DNA of 64,000 nucleotides from a virus: positions 1 through 64,000 of the IMG/VR virus record IMGVR_UViG_3300022924_000018. One strand, given 5' to 3'. Below the pieces are notes generated by a model that was given only the letters and a program-made list of their open reading frames with translations, searched no databases and was not told where the DNA came from. The stretch's first letter is position 1; every line of letters starts with the position of its first letter. A program made the position numbers and the translations under genes. This document shows positions 31,127-38,954 of the stretch, piece by piece.

Positions 31127-31900
31127 TTACTTGCATACTATTGAAATCTTGTTAGGCTTACGTTTACGAACGAGTCCGTCCTTACCCAAGAAGTAGTTTG
31201 ATGGATAACATAGTCCATAAAAGGCACGAAGATTAAGTTTGTCCTTAGAAACTATTTCAATGTTCTTCTCTGATTTAATCAATCCAACTGCATTTAACTT
31301 CTTTTGTATTTTGTTGCCTGTTGTTATGCTTCTTCTATTTACAAGAGTTGCTAATCCTTTATTGCTGATACTATAATAATCTTCGGTTCTTTCGGGTGTT
31401 GTGTTTTGCAGATAAGCATTTCTCTTTTGAATTAATTTCTTAGCTTCCTTTGGAGAGATAAAATTATCCTCTTGCAGTTTAATGATTTCGGACTTGAGAT
31501 TGGTTATGTATTGTTGTTGCCTAAAGTTTTTTAATAATCGTGTAAATTGAATGTTTAATATTTGTTTGTTCTTGTCATTATTGTATTCTACGGCAATTAG
31601 GGGCGACTGTAGTGACTTTCTAAGTTTGGTTGACCCAACTATGCAAAGATTCCCGTTGTGCATTGTAACGAGTCCTAATTCGGTAAGCTTCTTTATGTGC
31701 CTTTGTAGAGTAGAAATTGATAGCCCTGTTTTCTTAGAAACTTTTCTATATGAGAAGTTGTAGAATTTAGGATTTTTATAAGTCTTTCTTAGGATGATTA
31801 GGATTGATAATGAACGTTCCCATTTTTGAGCAATAGCTTGTTGTATTACCGCTTCGGGTAGCCAAGTGTATTTGTCGTATGTAATGGAAAGTTTGGTCAA
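31127..31900 (-). CDS. Double winged-helix protein with pseudoknot leader, copy 1 (TTG start)
   Basis: 257 residues. N-terminal winged helix at ~50-85 (YRKVSKKTGLSISTLQRHIKK then LVTMHNGNL), a helical, charged middle, and a second HTH-like module at ~180-215 (YYSISNKGLATLVNRR, NKIQKKLNAVGLIKSEKN). A paralogue of identical length lies at 38026-38799 and aligns throughout, sharing NGNL, LIKSE-N and PNKI. Two DNA-binding modules recall plasmid-type replication initiators, but a transcription regulator is equally possible. The only start that fits the paralogue alignment is TTG 31900, since an in-frame stop lies 12 codons upstream. A leader pseudoknot ends 4 nt before this start, suggesting regulated translation, perhaps by the protein itself. 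Confidence 0.65.
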   Translation of the reverse strand: MTKLSITYDKYTWLPEAVIQQAIAQKWERSLSILIILRKTYKNPKFYNFSYRKVSKKTGLSISTLQRHIKKLTELGLVTMHNGNLCIVGSTKLRKSLQSPLIAVEYNNDKNKQILNIQFTRLLKNFRQQQYITNLKSEIIKLQEDNFISPKEAKKLIQKRNAYLQNTTPERTEDYYSISNKGLATLVNRRSITTGNKIQKKLNAVGLIKSEKNIEIVSKDKLNLRAFYGLCYPSNYFLGKDGLVRKRKPNKISIVCK

Positions 31901-31904
31901 AGCA

Positions 31905-32039
31905 AAAGGGTTAGTGAAATTTAACTAGTTACCTTGATTGACGCTGTGGTAGGGCTTTATCGGTAATCTTTGCTAACTCACTAACCCTTTAGGGTTATAT
32001 CTTGATGTTCTTTGTATGATTGTCCTGCCTACCACAGCG
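31905..32039 (-). ncRNA. Leader pseudoknot of the copy-1 winged-helix gene
   Basis: Two perfect inverted repeats interleave. A 12-bp pair CGCTGTGGTAGG (31942-31953) / CCTACCACAGCG (32028-32039) and a 13-bp pair AAAGGGTTAGTGA (31905-31917) / TCACTAACCCTTT (31978-31990) occur in the order B'-A'-B-A along the - strand RNA, which can only be satisfied together as a pseudoknot. A' also has a competing local hairpin (AACCC/GGGTT, 31983-31996). The structure starts about 16 nt after a TATCTTTG promoter box and ends 4 nt before the TTG start codon. The same layout with different stem sequences occurs at 38805-38927. Seen directly; RNA function is inferred. Confidence 0.65.
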
Positions 32040-32054
32040 GTTTCAACCATGCAT

Positions 32055-32062
32055 CAAAGATA
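32055..32062 (-). promoter_or_regulatory. Bacteroidota -7 box driving the copy-1 leader
   Basis: TATCTTTG on the - strand, inside the conserved block TTCATATCTTTG(A/G)TGCATG that also precedes copy 2. It lies 16 bp before the first pseudoknot stem. Confidence 0.6.
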
Positions 32063-35120: not shown

Positions 35121-35624
35121 TTAATTTATCTGCAAATTTTTATTCTCTTTAATTCTTGCACCTTTTACTTTCTCTCCTGCTTCAATAGCATTCTTAACAG
35201 CTTTCTTATCTATTTTGAATGTAGCAGGTACAGGAATTTTAAACTTCTTAGGGATAAGCTTTTCATCCTCTATAATCGTTTCTTTTGAAGTTCTGAATGA
35301 TAGCTTAATGTTCTGCACTTCGATTGATTTAACTTCAAACATTATCATGGCATTCTTTACTCTCTCTTCTAACTTTTCCTTGGCTGTTATTCGTGCCTTT
35401 TTAAGCGCTGTAAGGCGTTCAATTTCTTTATCCAATAAATCTATCTCTCCATCATACTTTTTACAAACATAGCCGTATTTAGCGCTTTTAATCTCAAAGT
35501 TTTCTTTGTTAAGTTCTAAGGCTTTTTCTAATTCTGGTGTTACCTCGCCTCCTGCTTCAACTAATTGTTGAGCAATGGATAAATATTCTTCTTGAAGGCT
35601 GTAAAGATTTAATTCTGTACTCAT
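35121..35624 (-). CDS. Gp157-like phage protein (coiled coil)
   Basis: 167 residues with the order of the Siphovirus Gp157 family: N-terminal helix (LYSLQEEYLSIAQQLVEAGG), a long coiled coil (~50-105), then a beta part FRTSKETIIEDEKLIPKKF and a basic KIDKKAVKNAIEAGEKVKGA end. The family is associated with phage recombination modules and resistance, with unknown biochemistry. It lies near ERF. Confidence 0.65.
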   Translation of the reverse strand: MSTELNLYSLQEEYLSIAQQLVEAGGEVTPELEKALELNKENFEIKSAKYGYVCKKYDGEIDLLDKEIERLTALKKARITAKEKLEERVKNAMIMFEVKSIEVQNIKLSFRTSKETIIEDEKLIPKKFKIPVPATFKIDKKAVKNAIEAGEKVKGARIKENKNLQIN

Positions 35625-36211: not shown

Positions 36212-36793
36212 CTATGCAGTTTTGCTAAGTTCTTCCTCTAATTCTTTCTCTGTTGCTTTAGATACTGACCATTTCTTTCTAACATCAGCAATCTTATACC
36301 CTTCTCTCATTGCTTTTACAACATTGGCGAAACTAGGAGCATCAGATTTATTTAACCAAGGCAAAGCAGGTTTCTCTTCTTTCTTATCTGTGCCACCTGT
36401 ACTGTTATTACCACTTGCATTGTTACCATCATCATCTTCATCTATGTTAAGCGATAATACAGCCCCTACAGCGTATCTTCTCTGATAAGTGATACATGAG
36501 CCTATTCCTTGAGGATCGTTCTTTGTAGGGTTCATTTCATACGTATCCATTAAGTATTCACCACTCTCTGCATGAATAAGGATTGTAGTTAAACCATGAT
36601 TACCTGTAGGATGCTGACTAATGACTAATCCTGCATCTAATAAGGGTTGATGTATCTCTGAAAGAATATCTGGTAAGGCAGCGTATTTTGATTTAAAGAA
36701 AGGGTTGTTGCTTCCCTTGTTTACCGTTCCTACATTAGTGTGAAACTTTACCAATGCTAATGCAATGTTTTTTATTGATTCTGATTTTTCCAT
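36212..36793 (-). CDS. erf: ERF-family single-strand annealing recombinase
   Basis: 193 residues. Family marks are visible in order: NNPFFKSKYAALPDI (~29-43), an alpha/beta core with TTILIHAESGEYLMDTYEM, and the signature QGIGSCITYQRRYAVGAVLSL (~95-115). An acidic Gly/Asn linker (~116-135) leads to a short C-terminal helical domain. ERF proteins anneal complementary single strands, working with the phage SSB and exonucleases during recombination-dependent replication or genome circularisation. Confidence 0.75.
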   Translation of the reverse strand: MEKSESIKNIALALVKFHTNVGTVNKGSNNPFFKSKYAALPDILSEIHQPLLDAGLVISQHPTGNHGLTTILIHAESGEYLMDTYEMNPTKNDPQGIGSCITYQRRYAVGAVLSLNIDEDDDGNNASGNNSTGGTDKKEEKPALPWLNKSDAPSFANVVKAMREGYKIADVRKKWSVSKATEKELEEELSKTA

Positions 36794-38025: not shown

Positions 38026-38799
38026 TTACCGGACTGTGATTTTATTAGGTAGGATTTGGAACACAATGCCGTGTTTAGAGAGTTGATAGTTGTTGCTAAT
38101 GTACTTCTCCCTAAATGCTCTATAGTTTGGCAAGTAGTCAGCCATTACTATGTTACGTTCCGATTTTATAAGTTTTAATCTGTTAAGGTCTTTTTGAATT
38201 TTAACCCCTGTTCGTGCGCTGCGGTTACAGAGCTTTCCAAATGATTTGTTTGATAGCATTAAATAATCTAGTTTACCAATTTCAGCGTTTTTGTATTGTG
38301 GCATATCGTTCATTTTCTTTCTTGTAAGCTTTATGTCGCTAATTGAAAGTTTGCAATCTGCCTTAGGAATATCAAGGATGTTTTGGCGTAACTTATTTGC
38401 TTTATGCTGTAAGTGTAATTTTCTACGTATTAGTGTCTGTCTTAAATATGTTAGTTGATCTTGCTTGTTATTGTAGATTTTTATAGGAACTAATGTTGTT
38501 TTGTATTGTGCTTTTAAAGCGTGGGTTGATTTAAGGTAAAGGTTGCCATTTCTTATAGAAGCTAAATCAAGTGAAATAAGCTTGTGTAAGGCACGATGAA
38601 GTGTAGCGGGTGAACAACCTATCTTTTTGGATAAATCAGCGTATGTGAAGTTATAATGTACTGGTTTGCGCTTTAATGAAGCTAATCTTATAAAATAACC
38701 CAATTGATTTTCAAAACCTTGTTCAAAGGCAATTTGTATCAGTCCTAGTGGAAGATACTTATAGCTGAATGGTTTTAATTGTTTGGGTTCGTACTTCAA
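38026..38799 (-). CDS. Double winged-helix protein with pseudoknot leader, copy 2 (TTG start)
   Basis: 257 residues, same length as its paralogue at 31127-31900. N-terminal winged helix at ~52-85 (YADLSKKIGCSPATLHRALHK with wing SIRNGNLYL); basic helical middle; second HTH-like module near the C-terminus (LSNKSFGKLCNRSARTG, KIQKDLNRLKLIKSERN). It is strongly basic overall, as expected for a DNA- or RNA-binding protein. The start is TTG 38799; no ATG or GTG fits. The leader pseudoknot ends 5 nt before it. Initiator of replication or regulator remain the main options. Confidence 0.65.
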   Translation of the reverse strand: MKYEPKQLKPFSYKYLPLGLIQIAFEQGFENQLGYFIRLASLKRKPVHYNFTYADLSKKIGCSPATLHRALHKLISLDLASIRNGNLYLKSTHALKAQYKTTLVPIKIYNNKQDQLTYLRQTLIRRKLHLQHKANKLRQNILDIPKADCKLSISDIKLTRKKMNDMPQYKNAEIGKLDYLMLSNKSFGKLCNRSARTGVKIQKDLNRLKLIKSERNIVMADYLPNYRAFREKYISNNYQLSKHGIVFQILPNKITVR

Positions 38800-38804
38800 T
38801 GATA

Positions 38805-38927
38805 AAAGGGGTTAAACATTTCACGTTGATACTAAACTCTGCCAAGCGCCCTGTATCTTATGATTATGTCAACCCCTTTAAGGATATATTTTGGTAATGT
38901 ATAATGCTTATGACGTGGGCGCTTGGC
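38805..38927 (-). ncRNA. Leader pseudoknot of the copy-2 winged-helix gene
   Basis: Interleaved inverted repeats GCCAAGCGCCC (38841-38851) / GGGCGCTTGGC (38917-38927), 11 bp, and AAAGGGGTT (38805-38813) / AACCCCTTT (38871-38879), 9 bp, again in order B'-A'-B-A on the - strand. The B'-to-A' gap is 37 nt, exactly as in copy 1. The B stems share no sequence with copy 1 but are equally complementary, which is compensatory change in favour of structure. Confidence 0.65.
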
Positions 38928-38946
38928 GTTGCCTTATATCATGCAC

Positions 38947-38954
38947 CAAAGATA
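38947..38954 (-). promoter_or_regulatory. Bacteroidota -7 box driving the copy-2 leader
   Basis: TATCTTTG on the - strand in the same conserved context as the copy-1 promoter (TTCATATCTTTGGTGCATG), 20 bp before the first stem. Confidence 0.6.

Follow-up and report, generated by a model that had tools for sequence, protein, structure and literature searches.

A predicted pseudoknotted mRNA leader, maintained by compensatory change, in a Flavobacteriia-type phage and in six further phage records

Two paralogous winged-helix (wHTH) genes of a phage that appears from its sequence to be of Flavobacteriia type are each preceded by a leader in which two long inverted repeats interleave, and seven further copies of this leader were found in six other IMG/VR phage records, making nine elements in seven records. 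Since the same pairing is kept with different letters in the seven further copies, the leader is very probably an undescribed RNA control element, and the sequences indicate that it very probably acts on translation of the ORF downstream. Little is known about the timing of genes in Bacteroidota phages, and the ribosomes of their hosts ignore Shine-Dalgarno sequences. The leader seems to control access to the start codon through long-range structure, and nine copies with compensatory change make it a defined, testable element.

The window, the 64,000-nucleotide stretch of DNA analysed here, comes from a 76.6-kb IMG/VR phage record with a terminase distantly related (~25% identity) to those of Flavobacterium, Cellulophaga and related phages. 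Both leaders lie on its minus strand. Copy 1 starts with a promoter -7 box of the Bacteroidota TAnnTTTG type, TATCTTTG (32055-32062). Downstream of it the B' strand CGCTGTGGTAGG (32028-32039) forms 12 perfect base pairs with the B strand CCTACCACAGCG (31942-31953), and the A' strand AAAGGGTTAGTGA (31978-31990) forms 13 perfect base pairs with the A strand TCACTAACCCTTT (31905-31917); A' may extend further, over 31972-31977. The A strand is separated by 4 nt from the TTG start codon at 31898-31900. The box, the two interleaved perfect repeats and the distance to the start are thus present as the first-pass annotation had described them, and so is a second copy with the same order, the same 37-nt gap between B' and A' and the same position relative to box and start codon. 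In copy 2 the box TATCTTTG (38947-38954) is followed by B' GCCAAGCGCCC (38917-38927), which pairs over 11 bp with B GGGCGCTTGGC (38841-38851), and by A' AAAGGGGTTGACAT (38866-38879), the partner of A ATGTTTAACCCCTTT (38805-38819), with 9 perfect base pairs and more if G-U pairs and a bulge are allowed; its TTG is at 38797-38799. The B'-A' gap is 34-40 nt over the family. To this description a third helix, C, is added here, which lies outside B and begins ~4-7 nt past the promoter box. Its strands are GGTTGA (32043-32048), near the predicted RNA 5' end, and TCAATC (31936-31941) in copy 1, and TGATAT (38936-38941) and GTATCA (38827-38832) in copy 2.

The genes downstream, P0001 (31127-31900, minus strand) after copy 1 and P0002 (38026-38799, minus strand) after copy 2, both appear to start with TTG and encode paralogues of 257 aa with 36% identity. 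The genes upstream of the two leaders end ~10 bases before the respective promoter box, so P0001 and P0002 each seem to own a leader. An N-terminal winged helix is found in both proteins, P0001 matching HTH_36 above the Pfam cut-off, and the secondary structure of an AlphaFold model suggests that a second winged helix is probably present. The model (pLDDT 77) had no significant match in the PDB, where the best matches were winged-helix regulators, and its significant matches among viral structures were uncharacterised phage proteins.

Chance is a poor explanation for the arrangement. Copy 1 is the sole interleaved pair with both arms of at least 10 bp in the window, and dinucleotide shuffles of the window gave a mean of 0.12 such knots at arms of at least 10 bp and none at arms of at least 11 bp. 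When the relatives were scanned for promoter, B and A together, the eight elements then known scored 55-73, whereas other real sites reached 41 at most and shuffled genomes 39. The RNA fold z-scores of copies 1 and 2 were -3.5 and -2.9, respectively.

The further copies were located in several ways. A protein scan of viral contigs returned one orthologue of the copy 1 gene, 87% identical, in the record here called G001, and the leader is kept there; other related phages were reached through the terminase and then read piecewise. A blind scan for interleaved repeats gave a second element in G001 and one in G002, a pattern fixing the A and A' arms only added G005, G007 and G008, and a GGGG/CCCC variant of the A-arm pattern added G009, so that the search patterns of the element have located copies in seven phage records. 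A TAnnTTTG-like box stands at the corresponding place in eight of the nine elements and is degenerate in the ninth, that of G009. Unrelated matches to the A-only pattern had a B-like stem of at most 9 Watson-Crick pairs, against 10-15 in true elements, if repeats in an Omnitrophica genome and the low-complexity match L127 are excepted. Pattern matches in Omnitrophica, Xenorhabdus and others, and in L036, have neither the promoter nor the geometry and were discounted as repeats or coincidence. The searches covered IMG/VR, GTDB genomes and phage and plasmid records; neither the protein nor the element was found in isolated phages, plasmids or bacterial genomes, one weak 27-nt match being disregarded. 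G009 had no match to the terminase family of the window phage in a search run without a positive control, which suggests that more than one phage lineage carries the element.

Evidence for pairing comes from helix B, whose sequences are unrelated among the elements except in the orthologous pair of the window and G001 (G000c1/G001c1). Each element's own B stem scores 26-38 and outscores all 70 arm swaps (mean 14.6, maximum 22) in 9/9 cases. As MAFFT misaligns the free B arms, pair counts were taken from arms hand-aligned in a script. In the resulting eight-copy table helix B is 98% paired with compensatory double changes at 12 of 12 pairs, helix C is 100% paired with double changes at 5 of 5, and helix A is 97% paired with double changes, including U-G wobbles, at 5 of 13. 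The covariation expected of a structured cis-regulatory RNA in general is therefore found for the proposed helices, RNA pairing in the leader is well supported on these comparisons, and the selection on structure proposed from the two window copies is upheld. The earlier statement that the B stems are unrelated yet paired holds for the whole family; as to the claimed divergence of A, the two copies do differ, yet over the family A is mostly conserved in sequence (A' AAGGGUUAG and A CUAACCCUUUU) and it is B that forms a sequence-free helix. In several copies A can be extended by a UUAAC/GUUAA segment, by eye and also in nested folds. G-U cells exceed A-C cells within the stems by 16:1, as expected of RNA rather than DNA pairing, a count that is biased because the stems were drawn allowing G-U and serves as supporting evidence only. 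Homologues retaining the gene and lacking the pairing had been named beforehand as a possible refutation; all six known homologues carry the element.

The position of helix A relative to the start codon is constant. From the UUUU of A to the start codon there are 3 nt in seven elements and 4 nt in two, alike for wHTH genes with UUG and for mini-ORFs with AUG. Six elements precede wHTH-type genes with apparent UUG starts (31898-31900 and 38797-38799 in the window; L001, L016, L034 and L035). Four of these genes belong to one subfamily and two, in G002 and G005, to a second, whose proteins are 41% identical to each other and weakly linked to the first subfamily (hhalign probability 36%). The other three elements, G001 copy 2, G007 and G009, precede ATG mini-ORFs of 8-10 codons (MQLNPIPT, MQSTPNTT and MTGNLKTTPT) and have no adjacent wHTH gene, and in G009 no wHTH homologue is detectable at all. 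Since three copies stand before mini-ORFs only, regulation of wHTH genes is not the sole use of the element. In G001 and G007 the mini-ORF is followed by ~200 nt of non-coding sequence that is 69% identical between the two phages (L015:13235-13660, minus strand, and L101:10126-10326). Hairpins in this stretch apparently covary (GUAGAG/CUCUUAC against GUUUAG/CUAAAC; GCAUA/UAUGC against GCAUU/GAUGC), no match to it was found in Rfam, and from its sequence it looks like an undescribed structured non-coding RNA. In G009 (L114:2938-3207) a putative ORF of 70 aa would begin within the ATGA at which MTGNLKTTPT stops, an overlap that may reflect translational coupling, and a long polypyrimidine tract lies downstream.

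The reading we favour, and hold to be probable if by no great distance, is that the element works in cis, as a pseudoknotted leader keeping the 30S subunit out until a signal opens helix A. Judging from the position of the box, transcription would begin at or just 5' of C', giving a leader of ~145-160 nt in which B' should be included. Helices C and B (~5 + 11-15 bp) would close a loop of ~65-85 nt, and the free 3' strand A would pair over ~11-15 bp with A' within that loop. With A ending 3-4 nt ahead of the UUG, the 30S subunit would be excluded and translation would be low. Initiation in Flavobacterium works without a Shine-Dalgarno sequence, is tuned by mRNA structure from about -20 to +20 and favours an A at -3 (PMC6847099). 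In the elements the region before the start is pyrimidine-rich, with a UUG codon in six cases, and the closed state is read as off because the A strand occupies sequence that these initiation rules would require to be single-stranded. Opening of A, by a hairpin between A' and the strand A'' directly 5' of it, by a bound protein or by another signal, would then permit initiation. By analogy with T4 gene 32, where the encoded protein represses its own mRNA, control may be autogenous, and the likeliest controller would be the gene's own product or else another phage or host nucleic-acid-binding protein. The outcome would be control of the dose or timing of a DNA-binding protein.

A competing hairpin at A' had been proposed as the basis of a switch, and this claim holds in part. 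A'' can pair with A' in place of A and is in register in most copies; in copy 1 it is TAACCC (31992-31997, minus strand) and the local hairpin is strong, at 6 bp. In copy 2 it is weak, over the family it is marginal, and its energies are not clearly better than chance, with 10, 122, 100, 26, 32, 27, 17 and 108 of 200 shuffles of the upstream sequence giving an equally good hairpin, so that it stands out in some copies only. A switch through A''-A' is plausible on this sequence evidence. In nested folding, B-type folds and A-type folds come out at similar energy and take turns, so that the two helices may be present together, as a pseudoknot, or may alternate; comparative data alone cannot separate these cases.

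The opposite effect of the same pairing was also considered and appears unlikely: as in IncI-type repZ, the start site would be exposed once A and A' pair, and a counter-transcript or a factor would keep them from pairing. Its precedent is a pseudoknot that serves as the switch for repZ, as given in a reference listed in PMC10286972. The wHTH protein is also weakly similar to phage replication initiators, and TATCTTTG is read exactly on the opposite strand of loop L1, at the matching place, in G002 and G007 (two of the eight elements scanned), with near-matches in others; G009 too has, by eye, an opposite-strand L1 box. These could be promoters of an antisense RNA such as repZ has, but by eye they lack a -33 element, and the kindred A-rich motif CAAAGAUA occurs also in L2, so that the opposite-strand box may instead be an RNA motif. 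Motifs near CAAAGAUA recur in L1 and L2, for instance at ~2985-3005 of L016, where the opposite strand reads TATCTTTG, and would serve either as a loop motif of the RNA or as a promoter for antisense transcription. Against activation, the activating pairing of IncI is short, whereas A is 11-15 bp long and comes so close to the start (3-4 nt) that it should keep the 30S subunit out. The translated leader peptide ORF that overlaps the repZ structure also has no counterpart here: inspection of copy 1, its orthologue and copy 2 showed no conserved upstream ORF or leader peptide, the 25-codon upstream frame of copy 1 being shifted in the orthologue and missing in copy 2.

That the structure protects the mRNA 5' end or yields a trans-acting small RNA, the start-codon position being secondary, seems quite improbable. 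Helix C pairs the predicted 5' end, and the module precedes different ORFs, in two phages ahead of the conserved and apparently structured non-coding stretch, but stability alone would not need the A-to-start spacing of 3-4 nt that is kept in 9/9 elements. Very improbable, finally, are DNA operators for autorepression or looping by the winged-helix proteins: P0001 and P0002 are of DNA-binding type and the unrelated B motifs could be paralogue-specific operators, but apart from scattered near-matches the A and B motifs do not recur elsewhere in these genomes, for which the reading was set aside. Three elements, moreover, have no neighbouring wHTH gene (G009 having no detectable homologue), wobble pairs suit RNA, as does the location of helix C at the RNA's predicted 5' end, and operators would not be expected to keep a constant distance from the start codon.

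Among pseudoknotted mRNA leaders the element is a new RNA family. No element matched any of 4227 Rfam 15 families at gathering score (copy 1 also in E-value mode); the matches in the relatives were tRNAs only, and two sub-threshold snoRNA matches near copy 1 were taken as chance. No paper describing the element was found in titles and abstracts, in agreement with the earlier statement that no described phage RNA of this build was known. The riboswitches of SAM-II and preQ1 type are H-type pseudoknots in 5' leaders whose 3' strand masks the initiation region. The element shares their topology and the placement of its 3' strand, but it has very long sequence-free stems, no visible conserved ligand-pocket core and no Rfam match. 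The closest phage comparison is the T4/RB69 gene 32 operator, an mRNA pseudoknot 5' of the initiation region and the autogenous repression site for a nucleic-acid-binding protein (PMC535899). There a pseudoknot of ~28 nt is followed by a less structured, UUAAA-containing tract of more than 40 nt before the start (PMC535899), whereas here helices of 11-15 bp extend over ~150 nt, the last strand lies 3-4 nt from the start with no such A/U-rich tract between, and host phylum and protein family differ. With IncI-alpha/IncB repZ, so far as the reference in PMC10286972 goes, the likeness is that a pseudoknotted leader would switch translation of an initiator-type protein that binds DNA; the element differs in its much longer helices, in occurring in phages and not plasmids, and in the expected effect of pairing, which is opposite.

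More tentatively, and with a little less than even confidence, the nine elements can be viewed as an undescribed class of portable phage RNA switch. Such a 5'-terminal pseudoknot, with a free B and a nearly fixed A (CUAACCCUUUU), would move between phage lineages, be fixed 3-4 nt before unrelated ORFs (winged-helix regulators, or mini-ORFs with structured RNA) and perhaps use the fixed helix to sense a shared signal from phage or host.

Two further features of these genomes were observed. The phage fragment G007 carries a cluster of six tRNA genes (L101:812-1668, minus strand). Between leader copies 1 and 2 of the window lies a recombination module (35121-35624 and 36212-36793, minus strand), comprising genes for a Mu Gam-like end-protection protein and, nearby, an Erf-like single-strand annealing protein.
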